From contig JALSRI010000175.1 in NCBI GenBank assembly GCA_026984835.1, positions 1-42,565 on the forward strand: DNA of 42,565 nt. Reading direction: 5' to 3'. A program made the position numbers and the translations under genes. Under the pieces are notes generated by a model. That model did not search any database and was not told where the DNA came from. It saw only the letters and a list, made by a program, of their open reading frames with translations. Every line of letters starts with the position of its first letter. Within the stretch, counting starts at the first letter, position 1. The stretch is from Thiohalobacter sp. GTDB lineage: Bacteria; Pseudomonadota; Gammaproteobacteria; DSM-19610. This document shows, piece after piece, positions 353 through 39,834 of the stretch.

Positions 353-955
353 TCACTCGGCCGGCGGCGTTTGGTGTTTCTCCTCCCACTGTCGCGCCAG
401 CCATTCACCTTCGGCGACCTCTGAGGCCGACATGCCGGTCGCCAGCCTGCTGCGCGCCGGCATGGCATCCGGGTCTCCCCGCCAGGCCGCCACTGTCCAC
501 CACATATAGGCCAGCACCGGGTCGCGGCGGGTGCCGATGCCTTCGGCGTAGTGATGCCCGAGCCGGTATTGGGCCACCACCACACCTTGTTCCGCCGCCT
601 GGCGCTGCCACCGGAACGCCAGCGCATCGTTCCTCTTCGTTCCGCGGCCGTCGAGGTACAGTTTCGCCAGCCGCAGCTGCGCCGGGCCGTAACCCTGCAG
701 CGCCGCGGCCCGGTACCAGCGGTAGGCGGCCGCGTAGTCGATGGGCCGGCCGACGCCGCCCTCGCAGATCTCGCCCAGGTAGAACTGCGCTGCGGCGTGG
801 CCCTTGAGGGCCTCGACGAGGAATTCGTCGTAGGCCCTGTGGTAGTCGTACAACTCGTTATAAGCACGCAGCGCCGAGTCGAAATCGGCGGCCGCGCGGG
901 GTGCGCCCAGCAAGGCCGCGAGACACGGCAACAGGAGTGCAATCGATCGGATCAT
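353..955 (-). CDS. Secreted Sel1-repeat (SLR/TPR-like) protein
   Basis: The gene encodes about 200 residues with an N-terminal signal peptide (hydrophobic run IALLLPCLAALLG, cleavage probably after PRAAA). At least three Sel1-like repeats follow, recognisable by blocks such as AQFYLGEICEGG, AQLRLAKLYLDGRG and AQYRLGHHYAEGIG, each followed by an A-x-W-x-x-A-A helix. Such solenoids usually serve as periplasmic protein-interaction scaffolds; the partner is unknown. The ATG at 955 was chosen because the signal peptide starts cleanly there. An in-frame ATG at 994 would put charged residues in front and has no Shine-Dalgarno. The gene converges on mnmE (17 bp apart) and diverges from the DsrE-like gene. 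Confidence 0.8.
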   Translation of the reverse strand: MIRSIALLLPCLAALLGAPRAAADFDSALRAYNELYDYHRAYDEFLVEALKGHAAAQFYLGEICEGGVGRPIDYAAAYRWYRAAALQGYGPAQLRLAKLYLDGRGTKRNDALAFRWQRQAAEQGVVVAQYRLGHHYAEGIGTRRDPVLAYMWWTVAAWRGDPDAMPARSRLATGMSASEVAEGEWLARQWEEKHQTPPAE

Positions 956-999
956 GTCACTACCCTGGATGGAAATCCGCAGAAATTTATTCATGCCGG

Positions 1000-1026
1000 G
1001 AATAATTCTGCCATCGCCTGCCTCTA
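1000..1026 (+). promoter_or_regulatory. Candidate ECF-type promoter of the DsrE-porin unit
   Basis: GAATAA (1000-1005), a 17-bp spacer and TCTA (1023-1026) lie 39 bp before the DsrE-like start codon. The same GAATAA-N17-TCTA arrangement occurs upstream of the ECF sigma gene on the minus strand (6769-6743). No good sigma-70 promoter was seen in this short intergenic region. The assignment to the local ECF sigma factor is inference from the shared motif. Confidence 0.4.
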
Positions 1027-1064: not shown

Positions 1065-1580
1065 ATGAACCCAATCCTGCGAAGCGCCCTGGGCGCGATC
1101 ACCCTGGCCGTGGCGCTGTCCGGCAGCGGGCCGCTTGTTGCGGAGCCGCTCGACAAGAAGCCGGCACCTTCTCCCGACCTGTTCCACCCCAAACGGGTCA
1201 TGCCACAGCCCGAAGCGCCGGACGACAAGCCGTTTGCAGAACATTTCGTTGTATTCCATATCTCCACGGGTGACGCGTTCGCCCAGAAGCTGGTGCTCAA
1301 CAATGCTCAGAACCTGGCCAACTTCTACGGCCCCGACAAGGTCGTGATCGAAGTCGTCGCCTACGGCCCCGGCCTGCGCGCGCTGTTCCGCGAAAACACC
1401 TATGCCGACCGCATCAAGCGCATGTCCGACCAGGGTATCACCTTCACGGCCTGCGCCAACACCATGAAGGCCATGGGCCGGGATCTGCACAGCCTCAACA
1501 AGGTGGCGCGCGTCGTGCCCGGCGGCGTCGTGCGACTCACCGAGCTTCAGGAGGCCGGCTGGACCTATATCAGACCCTGA
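1065..1580 (+). CDS. Secreted DsrE/DsrF-like protein
   Basis: The 171-residue protein has an N-terminal signal peptide (about residues 1-27, ending near PLVA) and a proline-rich linker. A DsrE-like domain follows from about residue 60, with the VVFHISTGD first strand, the VIEVVAYGPGL strand-turn and the FTACANTM motif. Cys130 in that motif is the only cysteine of the protein; the equivalent cysteine in DsrE-family proteins can carry persulfide. The domain ends with LQEAGWTYIRP, almost the same as the end of the anti-sigma factor encoded at 5435-6184 (LQAGWTYVKV), so the two are paralogous. Location in the periplasm and a sulfane-sulfur or thiol role are inference. ATG 1065 was chosen because GGAGG lies just upstream and the signal peptide starts there. 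A porin gene follows 63 bp downstream, probably in the same transcript. Confidence 0.8.
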   Translation: MNPILRSALGAITLAVALSGSGPLVAEPLDKKPAPSPDLFHPKRVMPQPEAPDDKPFAEHFVVFHISTGDAFAQKLVLNNAQNLANFYGPDKVVIEVVAYGPGLRALFRENTYADRIKRMSDQGITFTACANTMKAMGRDLHSLNKVARVVPGGVVRLTELQEAGWTYIRP

Positions 1581-1643: not shown

Positions 1644-3206
1644 ATGTTCAAGAAACTCCACAGCATGCGCCGCGCGATTCCGCTTGGCACCGCGCTTGCC
1701 CTGGGCCTGGGCGCATCCGCCACCGAGGCCGCCAACTGGTTCAAGCTGCGCGGCACGGAACCGGGCGGCACCGCCCACACACTGCAGGTATGGGGCTTTC
1801 TGCAGCCGACCTACGTCAACGACACCAGCGATGACATCGAAGGCGCTGTCGGTCCCGCCGCCTCCATGAACGGCGACAAGCAGGTGCCCGGCACCGTCCC
1901 GCCCGATCGCACGTCGCGGGAGAGCTTTTTCATGCGCCGGGCCCGGATCGGGATCCGCGGCACCATGATCCCGATAAGCAATGACATCGATTATTTCATC
2001 CTGACGGAATGGGGCCAGAACGGCATAACCCGCGCCGGTGGCGCTGCCCATCTGCTCGATGCCTCCATTACCTTCAACCAGCTGTCGCGCGGCATGGACG
2101 ACGATGGCCTGCAGAACCTGGGCGTTCGCATGCGCATCGGTCAGTTCCTGTTCTCGCAGACTTCACAGGCGCTGTCGCAGTCCACGCCCGGCCGCCGTGT
2201 CCACATTTTCATGCCGGAGGCCACCTTTGCCCACGCCATTGGCCGTTTCACCACCGACAATGGCGTCCACAACTGGCCGGAAGACGAGACCAGCGCCAAT
2301 GGCGCCCGTGATGTCGGCGTCGAGCTGTTCGACTGGGCTGAGTTCAAGGACCCGTTCATGGGCGGCGGGCCGCTGGAATTCACCTATTCCTTCGGTCTCG
2401 GCAACGGCGACGCCATCGGCGAGCTAAACCGTGATGGCAACTTCAAGAAATACTACTGGTTGTCCCTTGCCAAGCTGTGGGACAAGACGCGCGGCCCGCG
2501 GCGCCACGACATGATGATCTATGGCTGGTATCAGGACACCAATGTGCTGTTCAACAACGATATCGACAACGATGGTCGTCCCGACAACCTTGCGGCCCCA
2601 CTGGGCGGCGACCGGCGTCCGCCCAATATTGCGGCCGATCCGGTCAGCTGCGGCAACCGCGTCTGCAAGAATGGCAACGAGAAGGATGAGAAGCAGCAAT
2701 ACTGGGGCTTCGGTTTCGAGTACTTCGACAAGCCATTCGCCAGTCTCGGCCAGATTCGCTTCGAGGCCGAATGGCAGAAGCAGCGCGGCCTGACCTTCGA
2801 CGGTGCGCGCAGCCCCTCGGTGAGGCAGAATGATCTCAACGGTGGATTCGACAGTATCCTGTATGAGCTGGGAGGTGAAAACACGGGCTGGTATGTCGAT
2901 ATCGGACACGACATCAACGGCTATCTCGGTATCAGAAAGCGTACCACGTTCAACGTGCGTTATGATGAATTCCATCGTAACAAGGGCAATGTGTCGCGCG
3001 AGGTCGAATGGAAGACCTGGAGCCTGACTGCCGAATACTTCTTCCACAAGAAGGCACGTGCCACCCTGACCTACCAGTTCCGTAACTTCAATGCCGACGA
3101 CCGCACCGGCGGCTTCAAGACCAACGGCAACGCGGTGCTGGAGCAGATCGACAACCGCATCGGCTTGCAGGTGACCTTCATCTACAAGAACGTGCTGCTC
3201 AGGTAG
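1644..3206 (+). CDS. Outer-membrane porin, phosphate-selective O/P-like
   Basis: The 520-residue protein has a signal peptide (residues 1 to about 29, ending ASATEAA) and then alternating amphipathic stretches typical of a beta-barrel: HTLQVWGFLQPTYV, FFMRRARIGIRG, NDIDYFILTEWG, LNGGFDSILYELGG. The FMRRAR-x-G-x-R-G motif near the N terminus is typical of phosphate-selective porin O/P (OprO/OprP-like) proteins. The barrel ends with LQVTFIYKNVLLR, where the family more often has a terminal Phe. A Cys pair in NRVCKNG and PVSCGN (about residues 335-345) may form a loop disulfide. The substrate cannot be told from sequence. It lies downstream of the DsrE-like gene and before a strong hairpin terminator. 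SD GGGAGGGG precedes ATG 1644. Confidence 0.75.
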   Translation: MFKKLHSMRRAIPLGTALALGLGASATEAANWFKLRGTEPGGTAHTLQVWGFLQPTYVNDTSDDIEGAVGPAASMNGDKQVPGTVPPDRTSRESFFMRRARIGIRGTMIPISNDIDYFILTEWGQNGITRAGGAAHLLDASITFNQLSRGMDDDGLQNLGVRMRIGQFLFSQTSQALSQSTPGRRVHIFMPEATFAHAIGRFTTDNGVHNWPEDETSANGARDVGVELFDWAEFKDPFMGGGPLEFTYSFGLGNGDAIGELNRDGNFKKYYWLSLAKLWDKTRGPRRHDMMIYGWYQDTNVLFNNDIDNDGRPDNLAAPLGGDRRPPNIAADPVSCGNRVCKNGNEKDEKQQYWGFGFEYFDKPFASLGQIRFEAEWQKQRGLTFDGARSPSVRQNDLNGGFDSILYELGGENTGWYVDIGHDINGYLGIRKRTTFNVRYDEFHRNKGNVSREVEWKTWSLTAEYFFHKKARATLTYQFRNFNADDRTGGFKTNGNAVLEQIDNRIGLQVTFIYKNVLLR

Positions 3207-3308: not shown

Positions 3309-4550
3309 ATGAACAGGCTATCGGTATCGTTGCTGGTTTATGCGGCAGGCGTTCTCGCACTGCTGCTGGTCCAGGGCTGCGGCACGACGCGCCGGGAAGC
3401 ACGCCAGGAAGTGCAGCGCGGTGTCTATGTTCCCGATGCAGACAGTGTCTTCGTCGCGAACCGGTCGAAGGTGAGCCGTTCTCCGGACGGGGCCCGAATC
3501 GCCATCATCGGAGAGGGGGCGGAGCCCTCATGGAAGATCGTTCGCCGCGCGCTCGCGCGCCTCGGCATTCCCTACGAAGTCCACGATGGCCCCAACCCCT
3601 GGCTGCTCACCGGTTGGGTGATCTGGTCCTACGATCCCGACGGGGACCGCGGGCGCAGCAAGCGGCCCGGCTTTGGGGTGTCCGGCACCGATGAACGCCA
3701 CCGCTTCCGTTTTTCCAAGGATCCGGCCGGCACCGACATCCTGGTCACCGACGCCGCCCGGCAGCGGGAGGTGGATATAGCGCCGGACAGCGAATACAGC
3801 TGGCTCGAATGGCAGGACGACACGCCCAGTCCCGCCGCCGCTTTCGCATTTGCGCGGCGTCTGCAGGGCGACATCGAAGCCGTGCTTTCACTCGTATCGA
3901 CAGAGTCTGCCTTGCAGAAGGCCGGCCGGGAGCCGGCGGCACAACAGCCCCCGGCGCCCGCAGCGGTTGCGCCGACCGGTACGGCGAAGCGTCCTGAAAC
4001 TCCGGCCAAGGTACAAGCGCCCGCCATCGTCGTTCCTCCCGCCGCACCGGTTCCCGGGAGTGGGGCTGCGCCACCGCCGGCCACCGTGGCGAGCGCGCCG
4101 CGCAAGAACCTGCCGGCGGTGGCTGCGGGCGCGCGTACTACCCTGTTGCTCGATGCGCCGCCGGCGCGGGTCTGGGAGGCGCTGCTGCGCGCGCTGCAGG
4201 ACGCGAAGGTCGAGCTGCAGACCCTCGATCGCAGCCAGCTGCTCGTCACCACCGACTGGGTCGACGCCAGCTACGATCGCAAGAACCAGCAGCTGATATT
4301 CCGGTCCAACGAACCGGGTCGCTGGGCATTCGACCTGCGTGGTCACGGACTCCAGCGCCACCGTTTCCAGCTGTTGCTCATTCCGGTGGGCGAAGGACGC
4401 ACCCTGCTGCGGGCCTACCACGTGGGATTCCAGGAGGAGGTCGATCTGACGCCGGATTCGTCGCAGACATTGCTGCAGTGGGCGGACCGCCGGACCGACC
4501 CCGCCATTGCAGCGGCATTCCTGCGGTACCTCAGGATCGTCCCGCGCTGA
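3309..4550 (+). CDS. BamC/NlpB-like lipoprotein with two helix-grip domains
   Basis: The 413-residue lipoprotein starts with a signal peptide and lipobox LVQGC (Cys24), so it should be acylated and anchored in a membrane. Residues about 55-195 form one BamC-like domain (ARIAIIGEGAEPSWKIVRRAL through the AFAFARRLQ helix). A Pro/Ala-rich linker of roughly 90 residues follows. A second copy covers about 280-413 (ARTTLLLDAPPARVWEALLRAL, LLVTTDWVDA, HRFQLLLIPVGEGRTLLRAYH). This matches the NlpB/DapX architecture, in which BamC is an accessory lipoprotein of the BAM outer-membrane assembly machine. Classical bamC sits beside dapA, which is absent here, so this is either a relocated or a paralogous copy. 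ATG 3309 was chosen because it gives the lipoprotein signal. Confidence 0.72.
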   Translation: MNRLSVSLLVYAAGVLALLLVQGCGTTRREARQEVQRGVYVPDADSVFVANRSKVSRSPDGARIAIIGEGAEPSWKIVRRALARLGIPYEVHDGPNPWLLTGWVIWSYDPDGDRGRSKRPGFGVSGTDERHRFRFSKDPAGTDILVTDAARQREVDIAPDSEYSWLEWQDDTPSPAAAFAFARRLQGDIEAVLSLVSTESALQKAGREPAAQQPPAPAAVAPTGTAKRPETPAKVQAPAIVVPPAAPVPGSGAAPPPATVASAPRKNLPAVAAGARTTLLLDAPPARVWEALLRALQDAKVELQTLDRSQLLVTTDWVDASYDRKNQQLIFRSNEPGRWAFDLRGHGLQRHRFQLLLIPVGEGRTLLRAYHVGFQEEVDLTPDSSQTLLQWADRRTDPAIAAAFLRYLRIVPR

Positions 4551-4577: not shown

Positions 4578-4901
4578 ATGAAAAACCCAACCAGGAGCGG
4601 ACCCGCGTTCGCAGCCGGCCTGCTGCTGGCCGGCGCGGTGAACCTGCCCGCGGTGGCCCAGGCGGGCGGCAACCCGTTTGCGTTTACCGATCTGGCCGCC
4701 AGCAACAGGCTGGCGCAGGCAGACGACGGGGAACGCGACCAGAAGATGGACAAGGAAGGCAAGTGTGGCGGCAAGTCGGCCAGGGAGGCGGTCTGCGGCA
4801 TCTACCAGGTAGGCAGCGGCCACAAGGACCCGGCCAGGGTAAAGGATGGCAAGTGCGGCGGCCACAGGGTCGTCGAGGCACTGTGTGGTGGAGACAGGTA
4901 A
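4578..4901 (+). CDS. HvfA-like secreted Cys peptide (possible RiPP metallophore or bufferin precursor)
   Basis: The 107-residue peptide starts with a signal sequence (about residues 1-29, cleaved near AVAQA). The NPFAFTDLAASNRLAQA segment resembles the conserved NPFA-x-x-x-L...LA block that opens mature HvfA-family peptides. Two six-residue motifs follow, EGKCGG (60-65) and DGKCGG (90-95), plus two further Cys-Gly pairs, AVCG (Cys73) and ALCGG (Cys103). In the family, EGKCG cysteines are modified by a DUF692 (MNIO) enzyme with a DUF2063 partner to give metal-binding groups. Neither partner is encoded in this window, so this is an orphan or an unmodified relative. A strong AGGAGG (4567-4572) selects ATG 4578 over the in-frame GTG at 4575. 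It lies between the BamC-like gene and a DUF302 gene, 22 bp from the latter. Confidence 0.62.
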   Translation: MKNPTRSGPAFAAGLLLAGAVNLPAVAQAGGNPFAFTDLAASNRLAQADDGERDQKMDKEGKCGGKSAREAVCGIYQVGSGHKDPARVKDGKCGGHRVVEALCGGDR

Positions 4902-4923: not shown

Positions 4924-5370
4924 ATGAAAAGGATGGTGATGGTGATACTGCTGCTGGGCCTGGGCCCGGCCTGGGGCGCGGAGGGTCTGTTGCAGGTGAA
5001 GAGCCCCCATGGCGTGAGCGAGACGCTCGACCGCTTCGAACAGGCGGTCCGCAACAAGGGCATGACCGTGTTCACGCGCATCGACCATGCTGCCGGTGCG
5101 GCGCGGGTGGGCAAGGTGCTGCGGCCGACCGAGCTGCTCATCTTCGGCAACCCCAACATCGGCACCCTGCTGATGCAGAGCAGGCAGACGGCGGCCATCG
5201 ACCTGCCCATGAAAGCCCTGGCCTGGAAGGATGCGCAAGGCCAGGTCTGGCTGGCCTGGAACGACCCGGCCTGGATCGCCAGGCGCCACGGTATCAGCGA
5301 TCGCGACGCCGTGGTGGCGAAGATGCAGAAGGCGCTGCGGGCCTTTGGGGCGGCTGCCACCAAGCCGTAG
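4924..5370 (+). CDS. Secreted DUF302 protein
   Basis: The 148-residue protein has a short signal peptide (residues 1 to about 18, ending PAWGA) followed by a single DUF302 domain covering nearly all the rest. The family hallmarks are the N-terminal strand-helix block (SPHGVSETLDRFEQAVRNKG), the strand VFTRIDHAAGA, the conserved LRPTELLIFGNPNIGTLLM, and the C-terminal WLAWNDPAWIARRHGI. The biochemical function of DUF302 is not known; it is found widely, often near stress or sulfur genes. AAGGAGA lies before the ATG. The gene follows the HvfA-like peptide by 22 bp and is probably co-transcribed with it. It ends 64 bp from the convergent anti-sigma gene. Confidence 0.82.
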   Translation: MKRMVMVILLLGLGPAWGAEGLLQVKSPHGVSETLDRFEQAVRNKGMTVFTRIDHAAGAARVGKVLRPTELLIFGNPNIGTLLMQSRQTAAIDLPMKALAWKDAQGQVWLAWNDPAWIARRHGISDRDAVVAKMQKALRAFGAAATKP

Positions 5371-5434: not shown

Positions 5435-6184
5435 TCAAGTCTCCGGCAGCGCTTCCACCTTGACATAGGTCCAGCCTGCCTGCAGGCGGTCGACGATGTG
5501 ATCGATGGCCGTCTTGTCGGTATCGACGTTGCTGATGAAGCGCGGGTGTTCGCCACGCCGGAACAGGTTGCGGATGCCGTTGGCACAGGCGATGAAGTGC
5601 ACGTTGTCGTGACGCCGTATCATGTCGGCCACCTGTTTCTCGAAGGGCGACACGCCGGCGCGCATCAGGTCCAGGCCGCCCGCGTTGGCCACCACCTCGA
5701 CCTGGCTGCCCGGTTTGTCGTGTTCCTTCAGAAAGGTCTCTATGTAGTCCAGGGCGGCGGCAAACTGGCGCGGGTCGGATTTGCTGATGTGCAGCACCAC
5801 CCGTTCACCGGCCTGCCGTGCGGCCATCGCCGGCGGGGTGGCGCCGCTCTTCTGGCTGCAATAATAGCCCAGCATGCCGCTGCCCAGGCCGACGGCCAGC
5901 AAGGTGACAGTGGCCGCCAGGCTCTTCCACAACGAGCGGCGAGTGCCATGCACGGGTGCCCCGACGTCCCGGTTGGCCGGCAGCAGCCGCGTCGGTGCCC
6001 TGGCGTCGGCGAACGCCAGGTTCATCAGGTCCTTGGCGCGGCGCAGTTCATAGACCTGGTCGCGGACGTCGGGATCCCTTTCCATGGTGGCCAGGATGGC
6101 CTCGCAGCCCTGGGCATCCAGCTGGCCGTCGACGAAGGCGCTCAGCAGTTGCGGGTCCGGATTTTCATATGTCTTCTTGATCAT
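5435..6184 (-). CDS. Membrane anti-sigma factor with periplasmic DsrE-like domain
   Basis: The protein has 249 residues and three parts. Residues about 10-60 (PQLLSAFVDGQLDAQGC, then the helical MERDPDVRDQVYELRRA) look like the cytoplasmic anti-sigma domain of ECF partners, without the HxxxCxxC zinc motif. Residues about 85-107 are one transmembrane helix (LWKSLAATVTLLAVGLGSGM). Residues about 125-249 form a DsrE-like domain with VVLHISKSD, VEVVANAGGLDL and FIACANG (Cys200), ending LQAGWTYVKV. It is paralogous to the secreted protein at 1065-1580. The gene starts a few bases after the sigma gene stops, so the two are surely an operon. The likely role, inferred, is to hold the sigma factor until Cys200 or a ligand of the DsrE domain is altered in the periplasm. 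Cys109 just outside the membrane could take part. Confidence 0.75.
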   Translation of the reverse strand: MIKKTYENPDPQLLSAFVDGQLDAQGCEAILATMERDPDVRDQVYELRRAKDLMNLAFADARAPTRLLPANRDVGAPVHGTRRSLWKSLAATVTLLAVGLGSGMLGYYCSQKSGATPPAMAARQAGERVVLHISKSDPRQFAAALDYIETFLKEHDKPGSQVEVVANAGGLDLMRAGVSPFEKQVADMIRRHDNVHFIACANGIRNLFRRGEHPRFISNVDTDKTAIDHIVDRLQAGWTYVKVEALPET

Positions 6185-6188
6185 GCGG

Positions 6189-6734
6189 CTACTTCACTAT
6201 CCGAATATGTTTACCCCGAGGCGTGGCATCGGCCGTGTGCTGCTCGAGCTGACCCAGGAGGTTCTTGCGCGCCCGGTGCAGCCGGCTCATCACCGTGCCG
6301 ATCGGGATGCTCAGTGTCTCCGCCACCTCGCAATAGGAGAAGCCTTCCAGGTCGACCAGGGACAGGATCTGCCGCTGGTCGTCGGGCAGGCGCGCCACGG
6401 CACAGCGTACGCGGGCGACGATTTCCATTTCCTGGCAGTTGCCGAGCGGGCCGTTCGCCTCGCACTGCTGCTCGTCGTCCAGTTCCGTGTGCGGCTTGCG
6501 GCGGCGCAGGTACTGGTGCCAGTTGTTGTTCAGGATGCTGTACAACCAGGCGAACAACCGGTTTTCATCCCGCAGCTGGTGGCTGTTGACCAGGCCGGAG
6601 GCCAGTGTCTCCTGTACCAGGTCGTCGGCCAGCATTTCGTCGCCGCACCACACCAGGGCCACCCGGAACAACCGGTCCCGCGACTCCGCGATTCTCCGCC
6701 TCAGCGGCTGATTGGTTTCATTTTTTGCGCGCAT
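6189..6734 (-). CDS. ECF-family RNA polymerase sigma factor
   Basis: The 181-residue protein has the two-domain ECF layout. Region 2 spans about residues 17-80 (RDRLFRVALVWC, then ADDLVQETL and the FAWLYSILNNNW helix). Region 4 spans about 110-162 (ARLPDDQRQILSLVDLEGFSY, then the recognition helix IPIGTVMSRLHRARKNLL). The ATG at 6734 is preferred; another at 6743 would add three residues, and neither has a clear SD. The upstream extension of the frame overlaps mnmG and is not coding. The gene is immediately followed by the anti-sigma gene. If the candidate promoter at 6743-6769 is real, the transcript would begin almost at the start codon. Confidence 0.88.
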   Translation of the reverse strand: MRAKNETNQPLRRRIAESRDRLFRVALVWCGDEMLADDLVQETLASGLVNSHQLRDENRLFAWLYSILNNNWHQYLRRRKPHTELDDEQQCEANGPLGNCQEMEIVARVRCAVARLPDDQRQILSLVDLEGFSYCEVAETLSIPIGTVMSRLHRARKNLLGQLEQHTADATPRGKHIRIVK

Positions 6735-6742
6735 TACCCACA

Positions 6743-6769
6743 TAGATGCAGCAACCCACCGGTTTATTC
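6743..6769 (-). promoter_or_regulatory. Candidate autoregulatory ECF promoter
   Basis: Read on the minus strand, GAATAA (6769-6764), 17 bp and TCTA (6746-6743) repeat the arrangement found before the DsrE-like gene at 1000-1026. ECF operons are commonly autoregulated. The difficulty is position: the transcript would start only a few bases from ATG 6734 and so be nearly leaderless. Confidence 0.3.
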
Positions 6770-6872
6770 TCCCGATCGGCGATATCGGCCGGGAAGCGCG
6801 GTCCCCGAAATGGCCTCGATTGCCGCAAAACGGTAGAATATCATCCCTTTGCCGGAATTTTTCGGGCCGGAC

Positions 6873-26682: not shown

Positions 26683-29767
<3,085 letters not shown>

Positions 29768-29779
29768 CGTGTTCGGGGA

Positions 29780-29803
29780 CCGGTGGAGCCGCGGCTCCAC
29801 CGG
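29780..29803. terminator. Perfect 11-bp hairpin between nirS and nirE
   Basis: CCGGTGGAGCC and its exact complement are separated by GC, with no T-tract after. It probably acts as a partial terminator or as a 3' stabiliser that keeps nirS mRNA above the biosynthetic genes; this is inference. Confidence 0.6.
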
Positions 29804-29837
29804 CCACCCCGGCTCTATCGTGACAGGGGAGACGCTG

Positions 29838-30617
29838 GTGACGGAACGAGGAAAAATCTGGCTGGTCGGCGCCGGACCCGGCGACCCCGAACTCCTGACG
29901 GTGAAGGCCCTGCGCCTGATCCGCGAGGCCGATACCCTGGTCTACGACCGCCTGGTGTCGGCCGAAATCCTGGCCCTGGTGCCGGAGTCGGTATCCCGCG
30001 TCTACGTGGGCAAGGCCGCCGGCCGCCATACGCTGGACCAGGAACAGATCAATGCGCTGCTGGTGGACCTGGCGCGCAAGCAGCAACGTGTCGTGCGCCT
30101 CAAGGGCGGCGACCCCTTCATTTTCGGGCGCGGCAGCGAGGAAGCGCTGGCGCTGGCGCGCCACGGCATTCCCTTCGGGATCGTGCCCGGCATCACTGCC
30201 GGCCAGGCCTGCGCGGCCTATGCCGGGATTCCACTCACCCACCGCGGCCTGGCGCACGGCGTGCAGTTCATCACCGGTCACCGCCGGGACGGTGAGCCCT
30301 CGGCCGTCGACGCCGCCGCGCTGGCCGACCCCGGCCAGACGCTGGTGGTGTACATGGGCCTGGCCAGGCTGCCCGGCATCGTCGACGAACTGCTCGCCGC
30401 CGGCCGTGCCGCCGACACGCCGGCGGCCGTCATCGAGCGCGGCACCACGCCGCGCCAGCGACACCGGGTCACCACCCTGGCGCGGCTGCCGGCCGTGGTG
30501 GAATCCGCCGCCGTGACCTCGCCGGCGCTGGTGGTGATCGGCGAGGTGGTATCCTTGTCGGCCGAACTCGACTGGTTCCTGCCCTTTGCAGAGGAGGCGC
30601 AACTGCGCTATGCCTAG
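29838..30617 (+). CDS. nirE: NirE/CobA-type uroporphyrinogen-III C-methyltransferase
   Basis: The 259-residue SAM-dependent enzyme converts uroporphyrinogen III to precorrin-2, the first step towards siroheme and heme d1. Motifs are IWLVGAGPGDPELLTVKAL at the N terminus, VYDRLVS, RLKGGDPFIFGRGSEEA and the GITAGQACAAYAGIPLTHRG loop. No CysG-type dehydrogenase domain is fused. GGGGAG upstream selects the GTG at 29838; a GTG at 29820 is the alternative. The gene overlaps the next one by 8 bp. Its position identifies it as the nir-dedicated copy. Confidence 0.93.
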   Translation: MTERGKIWLVGAGPGDPELLTVKALRLIREADTLVYDRLVSAEILALVPESVSRVYVGKAAGRHTLDQEQINALLVDLARKQQRVVRLKGGDPFIFGRGSEEALALARHGIPFGIVPGITAGQACAAYAGIPLTHRGLAHGVQFITGHRRDGEPSAVDAAALADPGQTLVVYMGLARLPGIVDELLAAGRAADTPAAVIERGTTPRQRHRVTTLARLPAVVESAAVTSPALVVIGEVVSLSAELDWFLPFAEEAQLRYA

Positions 30618-30930
30618 GCCGATCACAGCCCTGTGCCTGTTCGTGGCCAGCACCGGCGTGCTGGCGGCGCCCTTGTCCGGCGAGCGCCAGGCGCAGCTGC
30701 GCAGCCTGCTCTACCAGGACTGTGGCTCCTGCCACGGCATGCGCCTGACCGGCGGCCTGGGACCGGCGCTGACCCCGGACGCGCTGGCCGGCAAGTCGCG
30801 TGAACTGCTGCTGGCCACGGTGCGCGACGGCCGCGCCGGCACGCCCATGCCGCCCTGGAAGAAGTTGCTCAGCGAAGCCGACATCGAGTGGCTGGTGGAC
30901 TACCTGATGCAGCCGGGGGCGACGCGATGA
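30610..30930 (+). CDS. nirC: NirC-like periplasmic monoheme cytochrome c
   Basis: The 106-residue protein has a signal peptide (residues 1 to about 20, VASTGVLAA) and one heme motif CGSCH (Cys38, Cys41, His42). The likely distal ligand is Met80 in GTPMPPW. NirC-type cytochromes can donate electrons to NirS or take part in heme d1 maturation. ATG 30610 overlaps the nirE stop, and its own stop overlaps the nirF start (ATGA), so translation is coupled. The nirC name rests mainly on size and context. Confidence 0.8.
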   Translation: MPRPITALCLFVASTGVLAAPLSGERQAQLRSLLYQDCGSCHGMRLTGGLGPALTPDALAGKSRELLLATVRDGRAGTPMPPWKKLLSEADIEWLVDYLMQPGATR

Positions 30931-32093
30931 AGCGCTGGCTGCCCGCGCTGCTGATCCTGTTCGGCACCTTGGCGTCGGCCGCCGCCCTGCGCGGCACCGG
31001 CGACATGGGCGTCGTCATCGAGCGCGCCAGCGGCCAGGTCCTGATCGTCGAGCACAGCAACGACAGCGAACTGGCCGAGGTGGACGGGCTGGGCGACCTG
31101 TCGCATGCATCGGTGGTGTTCTCCCGCGATGAGCGCTATGCCTATGTGTTCGGGCGCGACGGCGGTCTGAGCAAGATCGACCTGCTGAACGCGAAGCTGG
31201 ACAAGCGCATCCTGCAGTCCGGCAACAGCATCGGCGGCGCCATCTCCCAGGACGGCCGGCTGGTGGCGGTATCGAACTATACGCCGGGCGGCGTGCGCAT
31301 CTTCGACGCCGACACCCTGGCGCCGGTGGCCGACATCCCCGCCGAGTACGCGCCAGGCAAGCGTTCCAAGGTGGTCGGCCTGGTCGACGCGCCCGGCAAC
31401 CGCTTCGTGTTCAGCCTCTACGATGCCGACCAGATCTGGGTCGCCGATCTCGGCGATCCCGAAAAGCCGGTGGTCACCCGATTCAAGGGGATCGGCCGTG
31501 CGCCCTACGACGCCCTGATCACGCCCGACGGCCGCTACTACGTCGCCGGCCTGTTCGGCGAGGACAGCATGGCGCTGCTCGACCTGTGGCACCCGGAACG
31601 CGGCGTGAGGCGCATCCTCAGGGGCTACCTCGCCCACGACGAGCGACTGCCGGTGTACAAGATGCCGCACCTGGAAGGCTGGGCGCTGGCCGGGCGCTTC
31701 GCCTTCGTGCCGGCCGTGGGCCAGCACCAGGTGCTGGTGATCGACACCGAGAACTGGAAGCAGGTCGACGCCATCGAGGTGCACGGCCAGCCGGTGTTCG
31801 TCATGGCGCGGCCGGACGGTCGCCAGGTGTGGGTCAATTTCGCCCACCCGGACAACGACACCGTGCAGGTCATCGACGCCGAGTCGCACCGCATCGTCAA
31901 GACCCTGAAGCCCGGCCCGGCCGTGCTGCACATGGAGTTCACGCCGCGCGGCGAGAAACTGTGGCTGTCGGTGCGCGACGCCGACCGCCTGCAGGTCTAC
32001 GACACCGCCACCCTGAAACGGCTCAAGGAGCTGCCGGCGAAGAAACCCAGCGGCATCTTCTTCACCGACCGCGCACACCGCATCGGGCTCTGA
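30927..32093 (+). CDS. nirF: NirF heme d1 biosynthesis protein
   Basis: The 388-residue protein has an N-terminal signal or lipid-less export sequence (LPALLILFGTLASAAAL) and a seven/eight-bladed propeller related to the d1 domain of NirS. Blocks include YAYVFGRDGGLSKIDLL, ISQDGRLVAVSNYTPGG, and the HLEGWALAGRFAFVPAVGQH region. It lacks a CxxCH motif. NirF acts late in heme d1 synthesis in the periplasm. It is translationally coupled to the NirC-like gene and ends one base before nirDL begins. Confidence 0.92.
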   Translation: MKRWLPALLILFGTLASAAALRGTGDMGVVIERASGQVLIVEHSNDSELAEVDGLGDLSHASVVFSRDERYAYVFGRDGGLSKIDLLNAKLDKRILQSGNSIGGAISQDGRLVAVSNYTPGGVRIFDADTLAPVADIPAEYAPGKRSKVVGLVDAPGNRFVFSLYDADQIWVADLGDPEKPVVTRFKGIGRAPYDALITPDGRYYVAGLFGEDSMALLDLWHPERGVRRILRGYLAHDERLPVYKMPHLEGWALAGRFAFVPAVGQHQVLVIDTENWKQVDAIEVHGQPVFVMARPDGRQVWVNFAHPDNDTVQVIDAESHRIVKTLKPGPAVLHMEFTPRGEKLWLSVRDADRLQVYDTATLKRLKELPAKKPSGIFFTDRAHRIGL

Positions 32094-32094
32094 C

Positions 32095-33081
32095 ATGGAA
32101 ACCCTGACCGAACGCCTGCTCAACGACTTCCAGCGCGACTTCCCGCTCAGCCCGCTGCCCTTCGATGCGATCGCCCAGCGCCTGGACACCGACACGGGCA
32201 CCGTGCTGCAGCGCCTGCGCCAGTTGCGCGAACGCGGCGCGGTCAGCCGCGTCGGCCCGGTATTCCGTCCCAATACCGTCGGCGTCAGCACCCTGGCGGC
32301 CATGGCGGTGCCGGCCGCGGAACTGGAAGCGGTCGCCGCCCGGGTCAGCCGCTTCCCGGAGGTCAATCACAACTACGAGCGCGAGCACCGTTACAACCTG
32401 TGGTTCGTGGTGACGGCGCCGGACCCGGCGTCCCTGGACGCCGCACTGGACCGTATTCGCACCGCGACCGGCCACGAGCTGCTGTCGCTGCCCCTGTTGC
32501 GCGACTACCACATCGACCTGGGCTTTCCCATGCAGCTCGGCGACGGCGAGGACATCGCCGCCCCGGTCACGGCCACGCCGCCGCCCGAGCTGCAGGACGG
32601 CGCGGCCGGCGGCGCCGAGGACCTGATCGACGCCGTGCAGGACGGCCTGCCGCTGGTGGCGCGACCCTACCGGGCCATCGCCGAACGCCTGGGCTGGAGC
32701 GAACGCGCCGTCATCGACGGCTTGCGCGACATGATCGGGCGCGGCGTCATCAAGCGTCTCGGGGTGGTGGTGCGCCACCACGAACTGGGCTACCGCGCCA
32801 ACGCGATGGTGGTATGGGACGTGCCCGACGCCGAGGTCGACCGGCTGGGCAGCCAGCTCGGCCGCCAGGACTGCGTGACCCTGTGCTACCAGCGCCCGCG
32901 GCGCCTGCCCGACTGGCCCTACAACCTGTTCTGCATGGTGCACGGCCGCGACCGCGGCGACGTGCTGGCCTGTATCGGGCGCATGGTGGAGGGCCTGGGC
33001 CTGGAGCACATCCCGCGCAGCGTGCTGTTCAGCGGCCGGCGCTTCAAGCAGCGCGGCGCGCGCTACCGGCTGGGACACTGA
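32095..33081 (+). CDS. nirDL: NirDL fused siroheme decarboxylase subunit
   Basis: The 328-residue protein joins two AsnC/Lrp-like halves. The D half (about 1-160) has SRVGPVFRPNTVG, FPEVNHNYEREH and RYNLWFVVTAP. The L half (about 175-328) has VVVRHHELGYRANAMVVWDVP, CYQRPRRLPDWPYNLFCMVHG. In the family the D-L and G-H proteins decarboxylate siroheme to 12,18-didecarboxysiroheme. Fusion of D and L into one chain is known in other denitrifiers. Its stop overlaps the nirG ATG (ATGA-type, TGATGG). Confidence 0.94.
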   Translation: METLTERLLNDFQRDFPLSPLPFDAIAQRLDTDTGTVLQRLRQLRERGAVSRVGPVFRPNTVGVSTLAAMAVPAAELEAVAARVSRFPEVNHNYEREHRYNLWFVVTAPDPASLDAALDRIRTATGHELLSLPLLRDYHIDLGFPMQLGDGEDIAAPVTATPPPELQDGAAGGAEDLIDAVQDGLPLVARPYRAIAERLGWSERAVIDGLRDMIGRGVIKRLGVVVRHHELGYRANAMVVWDVPDAEVDRLGSQLGRQDCVTLCYQRPRRLPDWPYNLFCMVHGRDRGDVLACIGRMVEGLGLEHIPRSVLFSGRRFKQRGARYRLGH

Positions 33082-33524
33082 TGGACGAGCTGGACCGGCG
33101 CATCATCAACGAGCTGCAGGGCGGTTTCCCGGTCAGCGAGCGGCCGTTTCGCGACAGCGCCGGGCGGCTGGGTACCAGCGAGAGCGAACTCATCACCCGC
33201 CTGCGCTGCATGCTCGACGACGGCCTGCTCACCCGTTTCGGCCCGATGTTCAACGCCGAGCGCATGGGCGGGGCGCTGAGCCTGTGCGCCATGCAGGTGC
33301 CGCCGGATCGCTTCGACGAAGTGGCCGAACAGGTCAATGCCTTCCCGGAAGTGGCGCACAACTACCAGCGCGACCACGCCATGAACATGTGGTTCGTGCT
33401 GGCCACCGAGACGCCGCAGGCGCTGGACGAGACCCTGCGCCGCATCGAGCGGGTCACCGGCCTGCCGGTGTTCAATCTGCCCAAGGAGCAGGAGTTCTAT
33501 GTCGGCCTGCATTTCCAGGTCTAG
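33081..33524 (+). CDS. nirG: NirG siroheme decarboxylase subunit
   Basis: The 147-residue Lrp-like protein resembles the first half of NirDL: LTRFGPMFNAERMGG, FPEVAHNYQRDHAMNMWFVLATE. It starts MDELDRRIINELQGGFPVS, a winged-helix opening. It pairs with NirH. The ATG at 33081 overlaps the nirDL stop codon. Confidence 0.93.
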   Translation: MDELDRRIINELQGGFPVSERPFRDSAGRLGTSESELITRLRCMLDDGLLTRFGPMFNAERMGGALSLCAMQVPPDRFDEVAEQVNAFPEVAHNYQRDHAMNMWFVLATETPQALDETLRRIERVTGLPVFNLPKEQEFYVGLHFQV

Positions 33525-33528
33525 CGAC

Positions 33529-34023
33529 ATGGCGGCAGCCGAACAGGACATCGCGGAGCTGGACCGACGCATCGTGCTGGCGACCCAGGCCGGCCTGCCG
33601 CTGGACGCGCGTCCCTACCACTGGCTGGCGTCGCAACTGGGTGTGGCGCCGGAGCTCGTCATGGAGCGCCTGCGCGCCATGCTGGACGACGGCCGCATCC
33701 GGCGTATCGGCGTCGTGCCCAACCACTACCGGCTCGGCTACGTCGCTAATGCCATGTCGGTGTGGGACGTGCCGGACGAGCATATCGAGGCGGTGGGGCG
33801 CGAGGTGGGCGGGCTCGACATCGTCAGCCACTGCTACCGGCGGCCGCGCCGGCTGCCCGACTGGCCCTACAACCTGTTCGCCATGGTGCACGGCCACAGC
33901 CGCGAGGAAGTCACCGAGAAAATCGACGACATCGCCCGTCTGCTGGGCCACCGGGTACGCGGCCATGATATCCTGTTCAGCACCCGAATCCTCAAGAAGA
34001 CCGGTCTGCGCATAGGAGGCTGA
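33529..34023 (+). CDS. nirH: NirH siroheme decarboxylase subunit
   Basis: The 164-residue Lrp-like protein resembles the second half of NirDL: VVPNHYRLGYVANAMSVWDVP, CYRRPRRLPDWPYNLFAMVHG. It is the partner of NirG. The ATG at 33529 lies 4 bp after the nirG stop and gives an opening (AELDRRIVLATQ) aligned with NirG. An in-frame ATG at 33499 with a better SD (AGGAG) would overlap nirG and add ten residues, so the start is not settled. Confidence 0.92.
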   Translation: MAAAEQDIAELDRRIVLATQAGLPLDARPYHWLASQLGVAPELVMERLRAMLDDGRIRRIGVVPNHYRLGYVANAMSVWDVPDEHIEAVGREVGGLDIVSHCYRRPRRLPDWPYNLFAMVHGHSREEVTEKIDDIARLLGHRVRGHDILFSTRILKKTGLRIGG

Positions 34024-34024
34024 C

Positions 34025-35260
34025 GTGTTCCGCATCTCACAATACATGAAGGAACTGGTGCAGCCGCCGGCCGGGCGGCCGCGGCGCCAGCCGCCCGGCC
34101 CGGTCGTGATCTGGAACCTGGTGCGGCGCTGCAACCTGAGCTGCAAGCACTGCTATTCGATTTCCGCCGACGTGGACTTTCCCGGCGAGCTGGATACACA
34201 ACAGGTGTTTTCGGTGATGGACGACCTGCGCGCCTTCGGGGTGCCGGTGCTCATCCTGTCCGGCGGCGAGCCGCTGCTACGGCCGGACATCTTCGACATC
34301 TCGCAGCGGGCCAAGGCCATGGGCTTCTATGTCGGCCTGTCCACCAACGGCACCCTGATCGACGAAGGGTTGATCGACCGGGTGGCGGCGGTCGGCTACG
34401 ACTATGTCGGCATCAGCATCGACGGCATGCGCGACACCCACGACCGGTTCCGGCAGAAGCGGGGCGCCTTCGATGCCTCGCTGCGCGGCATCCGCCTGTG
34501 CCGCGACGCCGGCATCAAGGTCGGCATGCGTTTCACGCCCACCCAGGACAACGCCCACGAACTGCCCGCGTTGCTGGAGCTGATGGAGCATGAGCGGGTC
34601 GACAAGCTGTACGTCTCGCACCTCAACTACGGCGGCCGCGGCAACCGCAACCGCCGTTCCGATGTCGTCCACCAGGCCACTCGCAGGGTCATGGACCTCC
34701 TGTTCGACACCTGCTGGGCCGATGTGCAGGCCGGCCGCGAGCGCGAGTTCGTCACCGGCAACAACGACGCCGACGGCGTCTACCTGCTGCACTGGATCCG
34801 GCGCAACGTGCCGGAGCGCTACGACCGGATGCGCCGGCGGCTGGCGGACTGGGGCGGCAACGCCTCGGGGGTGAACATCGCCAACATCGACAACCTCGGC
34901 AACGTGCACCCCGACACCTTCTGGTGGAACTACGACCTGGGCAACGTCAGGGAACGTCCCTTCTCCGAGATCTGGCAGGACACCAGTGACCCGCTCATGG
35001 CCGGTCTCAAGCAGTCGCCGCGGCCGCTCAAGGGCCGCTGCCGCGTGTGCGGTTTCCAGGACGTATGCGGCGGCAACACCCGCGTGCGCGCCTTCCAGAC
35101 CACCGGCGACCCCTGGTGGGAAGACCCGGCCTGCTACCTCGACGACGACGAACTTGGCATCGACAAGCGTGACTACGCCACCGACAAGCCCGAGCCCGCC
35201 AACCTGAACACCCACACCATCCGCTTCAACGGCCTTCGCAACCTCCGCAGGGCGGGGTGA
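34025..35260 (+). CDS. nirJ: NirJ radical SAM heme d1 biosynthesis enzyme
   Basis: The 411-residue radical SAM protein has CNLSCKHC (Cys36, Cys40, Cys43), the LSGGEPLLRPD motif, and a C-terminal SPASM-like cluster region CRVCGFQDVCGGN. NirJ replaces the two propionates of didecarboxysiroheme with oxo groups. The GTG start follows AGGAGG, one base after nirH. The last residues (LRNLRRAG) and the stop TGA are encoded by a short interspersed repeat (35247-35289), so the original C terminus has probably been altered. Confidence 0.95.
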   Translation: MFRISQYMKELVQPPAGRPRRQPPGPVVIWNLVRRCNLSCKHCYSISADVDFPGELDTQQVFSVMDDLRAFGVPVLILSGGEPLLRPDIFDISQRAKAMGFYVGLSTNGTLIDEGLIDRVAAVGYDYVGISIDGMRDTHDRFRQKRGAFDASLRGIRLCRDAGIKVGMRFTPTQDNAHELPALLELMEHERVDKLYVSHLNYGGRGNRNRRSDVVHQATRRVMDLLFDTCWADVQAGREREFVTGNNDADGVYLLHWIRRNVPERYDRMRRRLADWGGNASGVNIANIDNLGNVHPDTFWWNYDLGNVRERPFSEIWQDTSDPLMAGLKQSPRPLKGRCRVCGFQDVCGGNTRVRAFQTTGDPWWEDPACYLDDDELGIDKRDYATDKPEPANLNTHTIRFNGLRNLRRAG

Positions 35261-35289
35261 ACGAAGCGAACCCCGCCATGACCCGACCG
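35247..35289. repeat. Copy of the GTAGGGTGG-type repeat at the nirJ 3' end
   Basis: The unit GCAGGGCGGGG...GCGAACCCCGCC followed by ATGACCCGACC matches the copy between atpA and atpG (15676-15719) over about 43 bases. It contains the nirJ stop codon (35258-35260). Confidence 0.75.
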
Positions 35290-35343
35290 GTAGCGCAATC
35301 CTGCCCGCCGCCAGCATGCGGACGCCGCGACTGGAGATGTTTT

Positions 35344-35419
35344 TACCGCGAAGGACGCGAAGGGGAAAAACCCGTGTCGGATAATTTACTCCTTCGCGTC
35401 CTTCGCGTCCTTCGCGGTA
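35344..35419. repeat. Inverted GCGAAGGACGCGAAGG element forming the nirN start
   Basis: A perfect 20-bp arm at 35344-35363 (TACCGCGAAGGACGCGAAGG) is complemented at 35400-35419, and the right side carries an extra repeat unit. Translated in the nirN frame, the left arm gives REGREG and the right arm LRVLRVLRG, signatures of this element. Confidence 0.88.
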
Positions 35420-36987
35420 AAGCGCTTTTTGCCGCCGCCCTTTGCACCCTGGCGACGCACCTCCTTCCCGCGGCGGCGTCCGCCGCCGCCCCCGATGCCC
35501 ATGCCCTGTTCGGGCAGCACTGCGCCCGCTGCCACGGCGCCGACCGCCTCGGCGGCATGGGGCCGGCGCTGCTGCCCGACAACCTGCACCGCCTGCGCAG
35601 GAACAGAGCGGGGGATGTCATCGCCAACGGCCGCGCCGCCACCCAGATGCCGGCCTTCGGCAAGACGCTGTCGAAGGAAGAGATCCAGGCCCTGGTCGGC
35701 TACATCTACACGCCGCCGGCCACGCCACCGGTTTGGGGTGAAAAGGAGATACGCGCCAGCCACGTGGTCTACCACCCGGAACTGACCGAGGGGGACGCCA
35801 CCACGGTGAAACCCGTCTACGACGCCGATCCGCTCAACCTGTTCCTGGTGGTGGAGGGCGGCGACCATCACGTGACGGTGCTGGACGGCGACACCTTCAC
35901 GCCCATAAAGCGCTTCAAGTCCCGCTTCGCCCTGCACGGCGGGCCAAAGTATTCCTCCGACGGTCGCTTCGTCTATTTCGCCTCGCGCGACGGCTGGATC
36001 ACCAAGTACGACATGTACCGGCTCGAGACCGTCGCCGAGGTGCGCGCCGGCATCAACACCCGCAACGCCGCCGTGTCGGCCGACAACCGCTACGTGCTGG
36101 TCGGCAACTACCTGCCGCACAGCCTGGTGCTGCTGGATGCACGCGACCTCGGCCTGATCCGGGTCATCCCGGTCAGGGACGACTTCGGCAACGAGTCGCG
36201 GGTCAGCGCCGTCTACACCGCACCGCCGCGGCACAGCTTCATCGTCGCGCTGAAGGACTTGAAAGAGATCTGGGAGATCAGCTACGCCGACGAGCCGGAA
36301 ATGGTGTACCGCGGCCTGATGCACGATTTCCAGATGGGCGAGGGCCTGGCCGAGCAGGGGCGCTTCCCCGTTCGCCGCATCGAGCTGGACGACTATGTCG
36401 ACGATTTCTTCTTCGACCAGGGCTATACCAATCTCATCGGCGCCGCGCGCGAAGGGAAGAAGGGGCAGGTGGTCAACCTCATCGTCGGCCGCAAGATCGC
36501 CGACGTCGACCTGCCGGGCATGCCGCACCTGGGCTCGGGCATCACCTGGAAGTACGGCGACACCCGGGTGCTGGCCACACCCAACCTCAAGGAAGGCGTG
36601 GTCAGCATCATCGACATGAAGACCTGGAAGACCATCAAGCGCATCAAGACCCTGGGCCCCGGCTTCTTCATGCGCAGCCACGAGCATTCCCCCTATGCCT
36701 GGGTGGACGTGTTCTTCGGCCCCAACCGCGATGCCATGCACGTCATCGACAAGAAGACGCTGGAGATCGTGAAAACCCTGCGCCCGGTGCCGGGCAAGAC
36801 CTCCGCCCATGTCGAGTTCGACCGCTACGGCCGCCACGCCCTGGTGAGCATCTGGGACACCGATGGCGCCGTGATCGTCTACGACACCCGCACCCTGAAG
36901 GAAGTGAAGCGCATCCCGATGAGCAAGCCGGTTGGAAAATATAATGTTTACAACAAGATAACCAGGTCCGAGGGCACCAGCCACTGA
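35374..36987 (+). CDS. nirN: NirN, c-type cytochrome with heme d1 domain (dihydro-heme d1 dehydrogenase)
   Basis: The 537-residue protein has a heme c domain with CARCH (Cys50, Cys53, His54) and a d1-type propeller (YDADPLNLFLVVEGGDHHV, then SRFALHGGPKYSSDGRFVYF, and the HLGSGITWKYGD region). It ends GKYNVYNKIT, like NirS. In Pseudomonas, NirN performs the last dehydrogenation of heme d1. The chosen start is GTG 35374, with AGGGG eight bases upstream. Both lie in the palindromic repeat, and the signal peptide n-region (LLLRVLRVLRGK) is repeat-derived, followed by the h-region ALFAAALCTLATHLLP. Earlier in-frame codons (from 35257) would place about 40 charged residues before the signal. Confidence 0.88.
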   Translation: MSDNLLLRVLRVLRGKALFAAALCTLATHLLPAAASAAAPDAHALFGQHCARCHGADRLGGMGPALLPDNLHRLRRNRAGDVIANGRAATQMPAFGKTLSKEEIQALVGYIYTPPATPPVWGEKEIRASHVVYHPELTEGDATTVKPVYDADPLNLFLVVEGGDHHVTVLDGDTFTPIKRFKSRFALHGGPKYSSDGRFVYFASRDGWITKYDMYRLETVAEVRAGINTRNAAVSADNRYVLVGNYLPHSLVLLDARDLGLIRVIPVRDDFGNESRVSAVYTAPPRHSFIVALKDLKEIWEISYADEPEMVYRGLMHDFQMGEGLAEQGRFPVRRIELDDYVDDFFFDQGYTNLIGAAREGKKGQVVNLIVGRKIADVDLPGMPHLGSGITWKYGDTRVLATPNLKEGVVSIIDMKTWKTIKRIKTLGPGFFMRSHEHSPYAWVDVFFGPNRDAMHVIDKKTLEIVKTLRPVPGKTSAHVEFDRYGRHALVSIWDTDGAVIVYDTRTLKEVKRIPMSKPVGKYNVYNKITRSEGTSH

Positions 36988-37033
36988 TGCTCGCGGGACC
37001 GGCACGGATTTTCAGGCCAGTCGCCCGGGCTGC

Positions 37034-37076
37034 TTGACATACATCAAGGACATGGCCCGTCCAAAAAGCTTTAAAT
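37034..37076 (+). promoter_or_regulatory. FNR/DNR-type box and class II promoter of norCB
   Basis: TTGACATACATCAA (37034-37047) matches the TTGAT-N4-ATCAA consensus with one change. A -10-like TTAAAT (37071-37076) lies about 33 bp from the box centre, the same geometry as at nirS. The norC ATG is at 37113. Confidence 0.8.
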
Positions 37077-37112
37077 CACTCCCGATCCTGAACCAAAAAA
37101 GGCAGGTGCGCC

Positions 37113-38953
<1,841 letters not shown>

Positions 38954-38959
38954 ACATAC

Positions 38960-39550
38960 ATGGATATGACGGCGGGTCTCCCGGCGGCGACCGAGCAACG
39001 CAGTCTGCCGGGAGACTTCGCCATCTGGATCTTCATCTACGCCGAACTGCTGGTGTTCGGCGTTTTCTTCCTGGCCTACGCCTTTGCGCGCAGCCACAAC
39101 GTCGAGCTGTTCGACGCACAGCAGCGCTTCCTGGACCGCAATACCGGCGCCATCAACACCCTGGTGCTGATCACGTCCAGCTTCCTGGTGGTGCGGGCCG
39201 TCAACGCCATTCGCCGCGACGCGGCGGCCGTCTGTGCACGCTGGCTGACGGCGGCCATCGCCTGCGGCGGCATCTTCGTGGCGCTCAAGCTGGGCGAGTT
39301 CCACGCCAAGTTCGCGGCCGGCGTGACACTCAGCACCAACACCTTCTACATGTTCTACCTGTCGCTGACCTTCTTCCACTTCATGCACGTGCTGATGGGC
39401 ATGGTGATCCTGGCCGTGGTGGCGGTGAAGGCGCGCCGCGGCGCCTACAGCGCCGCCAGCCATACCGGCGTGGAGACCGGCGCCTCCTACTGGCACATGG
39501 TGGACCTGGTGTGGATCGTGCTGTTCCCCCTGGTCTATGTGATGCACTGA
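38960..39550 (+). CDS. norE: NorE, cytochrome c oxidase subunit III-like membrane protein
   Basis: The 196-residue protein has five predicted membrane helices and belongs to the COX3 family: GDFAIWIFIYAELLVFGVFF, TLVLITSSFLVVRAV, the STNTFYMFYLSLTFFHFMHV helix with the glutamate/histidine pattern, and YWHMVDLVWIVLFPLVYVMH. NorE proteins accompany NorCB and aid full activity. Its stop overlaps the norF ATG (ACTGATG). Confidence 0.88.
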   Translation: MDMTAGLPAATEQRSLPGDFAIWIFIYAELLVFGVFFLAYAFARSHNVELFDAQQRFLDRNTGAINTLVLITSSFLVVRAVNAIRRDAAAVCARWLTAAIACGGIFVALKLGEFHAKFAAGVTLSTNTFYMFYLSLTFFHFMHVLMGMVILAVVAVKARRGAYSAASHTGVETGASYWHMVDLVWIVLFPLVYVMH

Positions 39551-39834
39551 TGAAGGCGGACGCGGCGACAAGGCGTGCCGATGTCACCGCCCTGGGGGTG
39601 TGGCTGGCGCTGTGCGGCCTGACGGTCGCCACCTGGCTGGTCGGCCAGGCCGGGGTGGGGGGTGCCGCCGTGGTGGCGGCGCTGATGCTGTCGGTGCTGG
39701 TCAAGGGCCAGATGGTGGTGGATTTCTACATGGGACTGAAGCGGGTACGCGGACCCTGGCGCTGGGTGGTGACGGGCTGGCTGGTCGCTGTCCTGACGCT
39801 GATCGGGGTGGCATACTGGCTGGGGGGACACTGA
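39550..39834 (+). CDS. norF: NorF-like, prokaryotic COX4-family small membrane protein
   Basis: The 94-residue protein has three predicted helices: TALGVWLALCGLTVATWLVG, AAVVAALMLSVLVKGQMVVD and WVVTGWLVAVLTLIGVAYWL. The KGQMVVDFYMGLKRV segment is typical of the COX4/NorF family. It is paired with the COX3-like gene as in other nor clusters. The function is accessory to NorCB. Confidence 0.83.
   Translation: MKADAATRRADVTALGVWLALCGLTVATWLVGQAGVGGAAVVAALMLSVLVKGQMVVDFYMGLKRVRGPWRWVVTGWLVAVLTLIGVAYWLGGH

Follow-up and report, generated by a model that had tools for sequence, protein, structure and literature searches.

The window analysed here, a stretch of 42,565 nucleotides from Thiohalobacter sp., encodes an HvfA-like, four-cysteine peptide of 107 amino acids (4578..4901, + strand), whose reading frame runs from an ATG at 4578, with AGGAGG immediately 5', to a TAA at 4899-4901. 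Before it on the same strand lie a DsrE-like protein with a signal-like N-terminus (1065..1580; Pfam DsrE, 2.8e-6), a beta-barrel porin-like protein named by inspection and without a library match (1644..3206), and a BamC-like (NlpB/DapX) lipoprotein (3309..4550) that reaches 25.3 bits with Pfam PF06804 at a cut-off of 25; a secreted DUF302 protein follows (4924..5370; PF03625, 2.6e-18). On the opposite strand, an ECF sigma factor (6189..6743; Sigma70_r4_2 8e-17, Sigma70_r2 5.8e-10) is accompanied by an anti-sigma-like protein (5435..6184) with weak anti-sigma matches and a DsrE-like C-terminal region, residues 129-242 resembling the DsrE protein of the window (BLAST, 5e-7). A secreted Sel1-repeat protein (353..955, - strand) lies near the same ECF/DsrE genes in two related loci, L049 and L119. 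Relatives of the DUF302 protein (4924-5370, + strand) are labelled as the fluoride transporter CrcB by NCBIfam and in one PDB title, a label that fits a fusion and which we rejected for the window protein.

A hydrophobic N-terminus, recognised by inspection and by an N-terminal HMM and read as a putative Sec signal, precedes the segment NPFAFTDLAA, confirming the NPFA...LA opening noted in the original prediction. Four cysteines follow, Cys63 (EGKCG), Cys73 (EAVCG), Cys93 (DGKCG) and Cys103 (EALCG), spaced 10/20/10, and the chain closes with EALCGGDR, placing a CGG near the C-terminus. The two [E/D]GKCGG motifs therefore stand 30 residues apart with a Cys-Gly 10 residues after each, as had been described; the accompanying idea of a duplicated unit had the spacing right but overlooked that each 'Cys-Gly' site repeats, in degenerate form, one five-residue motif shared by all four cysteines. 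A reading of these pairs as unrelated to EGKCG was rejected on a tally of the residues at -3 and +1 of each cysteine. Tandem EGKCG repeats are absent; the peptide instead has [E/D]xxCG at four spaced positions, with GKCG at two of them. Pfam and NCBIfam returned no family for the peptide at E<=1, DUF2282 (the Bufferin 1 domain) being among the Pfam models without a match at that threshold, and AlphaFold2, uninformative with four sequences only, gave no confident fold (pLDDT 42.8).

Homology to HvfA precursors was computed with profiles. An HMM built from 27 MNIO-adjacent HvfAs, with orthologues of the window peptide excluded from training, detected it among 3607 translated segments (the window plus related loci) at E 1.4e-13. 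A cysteine-free HMM of the signal and NPF region gave 1.7e-4 for the window peptide, its orthologues scoring between 1e-15 and 7e-8, with the best unrelated segment at 0.46 in the same database of 3607. In the reverse direction, a model of five orthologues found matches in 90 of 369 genomes of the class (E<=1e-4), the three orthologues present scoring 156-175 bits and all others at most 59. Among 17 further loci from this search (L054-L070), 12 have an MNIO within ~3 kb; none was found in the ~3 kb examined around L060, L064, L065, L067 and L068, L064 lying at a contig end. The NCBIfam HvfA models NF050137 and NF050188 did not match the window peptide at E<=1, which counts against its modification by HvfBC, and the HvfA encoded elsewhere in the window genome scores 75.4 bits with NF050137. 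By these profile comparisons the peptide is a genuine HvfA homologue: the proposed likeness to HvfA is borne out in both directions despite the lack of a Pfam or NCBIfam match, and the possibility that profile searches would find no such similarity was checked and set aside.

Orthologues of the peptide are few. A search of 95 genomes, the window genome included, gave four strong matches (E<=3e-25), in the window genome itself (G000) and in G002, G014 and G008, and a scan of contigs yielded three loci. Two, from Thiohalobacter and Thiogranum MAGs, are taken as those of G014 and G008; the third, L049, comes from an Ectothiorhodospiraceae MAG and adds a fifth member (G095 and G377 share the contig positions of L049, and the three are treated as one genome). 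No relative was found in the viral_contigs scan, where none of 217 pattern matches was confirmed. The subfamily is small and limited to sulfur-oxidiser-like Gammaproteobacteria, a group in which the window presumably also falls. Synteny was computed across its members: pieces of a single gene set (ECF sigma, anti-sigma, Sel1, DsrE-like, porin and BamC-like) flank the peptide in all five genomes, and the DUF302 gene belongs to the set in four; since G008 and G014 have split contigs, some genes of the set are not visible there on the peptide's own contig. The porin occurs in four of 20 family genomes, exactly those with the peptide, in a comparison made without correction for relatedness and with incomplete assemblies for G008 and G014. 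Motifs and gene neighbourhood are kept in four orthologues, which, with the profile link to MNIO-adjacent HvfAs, takes the observation beyond chance. Some sites without Lys and a lineage-limited distribution would suit a functionless, decaying hvfA duplicate, a reading that we disfavour as highly improbable given 31 invariant columns in the alignment of five divergent orthologues and the same gene set retained beside each of them.

Conservation is most pronounced around the cysteines. At every one of the 21 cysteines of the five orthologues the -3 residue is acidic and the +1 residue is Gly; the corresponding figures for the 27 MNIO-adjacent precursors are 181 and 186 of 187 cysteines. A hydrophobic residue (V, L or M; one A in the MNIO-adjacent set left uncounted) precedes the cysteine in 10 of 21 cases in the orthologues versus 0 of 187 in the MNIO-adjacent precursors, and at Cys73 and Cys103 V, L or S replaces the preceding Lys in all five orthologues, which counts against modification by HvfBC. 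Between the two Cys pairs runs a conserved linker, IYQ[IV]GSxHxDxxKV. Combined with the even cysteine count and the 10/20/10 spacing, this linker might point to a small disulfide-bonded periplasmic protein in which two CX9C pairs close two linker-joined loops, with no metal role; we regard that as improbable, since the L049 orthologue has a fifth cysteine, the G014 orthologue carries a 3-residue insertion within its first pair, and the cysteine contexts are rich in Gly.

Neither an MNIO (PF05114) nor a DUF2063 (PF09836) gene was found on the window contig, in agreement with the claim that no such gene lies nearby. The description of the peptide as an orphan without its enzymes is correct for the locus but not for the genome, where a search for DUF692 and DUF2063 genes recovered one copy of each, both on contig C191 beside a repeat-rich HvfA. 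NCBIfam identifies this MNIO as HvfB (450 bits, cut-off 360) and the DUF2063 protein as HvfC (340 bits, cut-off 142). In the complete genome G002, a single closed contig, the peptide lies at 133 kb, far from the sole MNIO at 2056 kb, and an HvfB-type MNIO is distant from the peptide in four of the five orthologue-bearing genomes (G000, G002, G008 and G377). As an MNIO is present in 19 of 20 family genomes, co-occurrence of peptide and MNIO says little. With HvfB and HvfC encoded so far away, any modification of the peptide would have to act in trans, and such modification by the distant HvfBC is plausible. In G014 (assembly ~92% complete) an HvfB-type enzyme was not found, the only MNIO detected being of BufB type, and this counts against the HvfBC route. 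The four HvfBs carry Arg-Arg at 16-17 and ERDF, and the G014 enzyme has ERDD; in the available text of PMC13097082, Arg-Arg and Phe in the MNIO go with Lys-Cys substrates, and Asp for Phe with Cys-Lys substrates. Judged by its residues, the BufB-type MNIO of G014 is of the Cys-Lys type.

Our preferred reading, which we hold by a narrow balance, is that the peptide is modified by HvfBC and binds metal in the periplasm as part of a sulfur-linked envelope response. It would be a secreted precursor of the HvfA (EGKCG/oxazolin, captophorin) family, now forming its own subfamily with four fixed cysteine sites. In the cytoplasm it would most likely be bound by the one HvfC-HvfB pair that the genome encodes, away from the peptide locus; this pair would turn at least the two KCG cysteines, and perhaps all four sites, into 5-thiooxazoles ahead of export by the Sec route. 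Once in the periplasm, the peptide may bind a thiophilic metal such as Cu(I). Related chemistry is described in the available portions of published work: HvfB, together with HvfC, forms the six 5-thiooxazoles of oxazolin (PMC13419390), and FonBC modified a short substrate of two repeats and not one of a single repeat, with DGKCG modified fully, NVCGG once, and a small residue required as a rule at position 5 (PMC13097082). Alternatively, the peptide may escape the MNIO altogether, with four free thiols that would bind metal or act as periplasmic carriers of sulfane sulfur, in a loose parallel to the C-terminal Cys arm of SoxY. The DsrE, DUF302 and sox-linked context, the CGG close to the C-terminus, the failure to find an HvfB-type enzyme in G014 and the replacement of Lys at two sites all lend this some weight. 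Nevertheless, the acid at -3 of all 21 cysteines is expected of an MNIO substrate and not of a simple arm of thiols, the N-terminus keeps its HvfA-type character, and SoxY models did not match the peptide, which has no C-terminal GGCGG; we therefore consider free thiols unlikely, if deserving of attention.

Under the preferred reading of an HvfBC-modified peptide, expression would be shared with the DsrE-like, porin, BamC-like lipoprotein and DUF302 genes under the ECF sigma factor, whose anti-sigma carries the DsrE-like region, and the response would be tied to sulfur oxidation. Two promoter-like sites bear on this: an ECF-type site, GGAATAA-N15-CCTC (999..1024, + strand), stands before the DsrE-porin-BamC-peptide-DUF302 genes, and AGAATAA-N15-CATC (6745..6770, - strand) before the ECF gene. 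The computed motif, [AG]GAATAA-N15-C[ACG]TC, has 2 matches in the window versus 0.05 expected (100 shuffles), a count that is not independent because the pattern was itself drawn up by eye on these sites and on related loci. Whole-genome matches, with reversed-pattern controls after the stroke, number 7/0 in G000, 8/0 in G002, 14/3 in G008 and 9/2 in G377. The motif precedes soxX (of soxXYZ) in G000, G002 and G008, with SoxX, Y, Z, A and B confirmed in G000; it also stands before a second ECF pair, whose anti-sigma is DsrE-like, and before the gene of a small secreted protein on contig C257; a relative of this protein lies inside the L049 peptide operon (31% identity, 4e-11). These soxX, second-pair and C257 sites are independent support for the motif. 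Many other matches, chiefly in G002, G008 and G377, are without a matching gene among those compared and may be chance.

The regulators themselves are duplicated, with paralogous ECF pairs at 5435-6743 (- strand) of the window and at L108:6782-8088, each with an anti-sigma bearing a DsrE-like C-terminal region, and one of the two may control soxXYZ. The sox sites read CGTC, as does the second ECF factor's own promoter, and the window sites CATC or CCTC, so that sox may chiefly be a target of the paralogue. No motif match was found near hvfABC, either on C191 or at 2055 kb in G002; enzyme and peptide thus need not be co-expressed, and we do not claim their co-regulation. From its promoter and neighbours, the peptide gene set looks to be switched on by a sulfur-linked stress regulator, the inducing signal presumably being related to sulfur. 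A more speculative and rather improbable proposal is that an HvfA-type peptide, matured by the distant HvfBC, has been recruited to sulfur energy metabolism, its [E/D]xxCG thiooxazoles or free thiols working in the periplasm alongside DsrE, DUF302 and Sox proteins to handle sulfur species or copper bound to sulfur.

Compared with the Buf_EGKCG/oxazolin precursors (HvfA, FonA; captophorins), the window peptide shares NPFxxxxL after the putative signal, the [E/D]xxCG sites and a genome encoding HvfB/HvfC-type enzymes. It departs from them in having four fixed, spaced sites, with V or L before the cysteine at two, where they have tandem EGKCG repeats, and in standing without an MNIO/PME1 neighbour in a DsrE/porin/BamC-like/DUF302 operon that an ECF factor accompanies. 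The available text of PMC12452194 reports precursors not linked to MNIO genes, as well as genomes in which a single MNIO-PME1 pair coexists with several precursors; it is a paper whose Discussion poses as an open question whether such unlinked precursors are modified in trans. Our case, with an unlinked precursor and one enzyme pair in the genome, resembles those stand-alone bufferin/EGKCG precursors and bears on that question, while its subfamily and sulfur-linked ECF context are not described in that text. Parts of other reports describe DUF302 beside sox genes (PMC5037610) and ECF control of sulfite oxidation by the sulfite-responsive ECF26 factors RpoE1/RpoE4 (PMC3511301). The present system would resemble the latter in autoregulation and control of periplasmic sulfur oxidation genes, and differs in that it involves sox genes, a metallophore-like peptide and an anti-sigma whose C-terminal region is DsrE-like. 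In titles and abstract openings, with subscription journals mostly outside the search, neither the window peptide's subfamily nor a DsrE-type anti-sigma controlling sox was described. Unlinked precursors are already known; the four-Cys subfamily and its sulfur/ECF context appear new, and this context suggests a role for HvfA-type peptides beyond general copper stress.

Other unlinked precursors were seen in the same genomes. The complete genome G002 also encodes an EGKCG precursor with EF-hand-like stretches (L071:2764-3204, + strand), and so pairs one MNIO gene with two distant HvfA-type precursors, this one and the window-type peptide; with only four or five sites in the window subfamily, this makes for a simple test by co-expression and mass measurement. 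In the window genome, contigs C113 and C165 carry two near-identical secreted peptides (L109:2462-2776, - strand; L110:9645-9947, + strand) with only two sites, EGRCG and EGKCG, and no MNIO nearby; either they add to the unlinked HvfA-like peptides or the assembly has duplicated one, and a similar peptide is found in G004 (L010). Further along the window, at ~27800-39600 (+ strand), lies what we take by eye to be a heme d1/cytochrome cd1 denitrification cluster (nirS/nirF/nirJ-like) with nor-like cytochromes.
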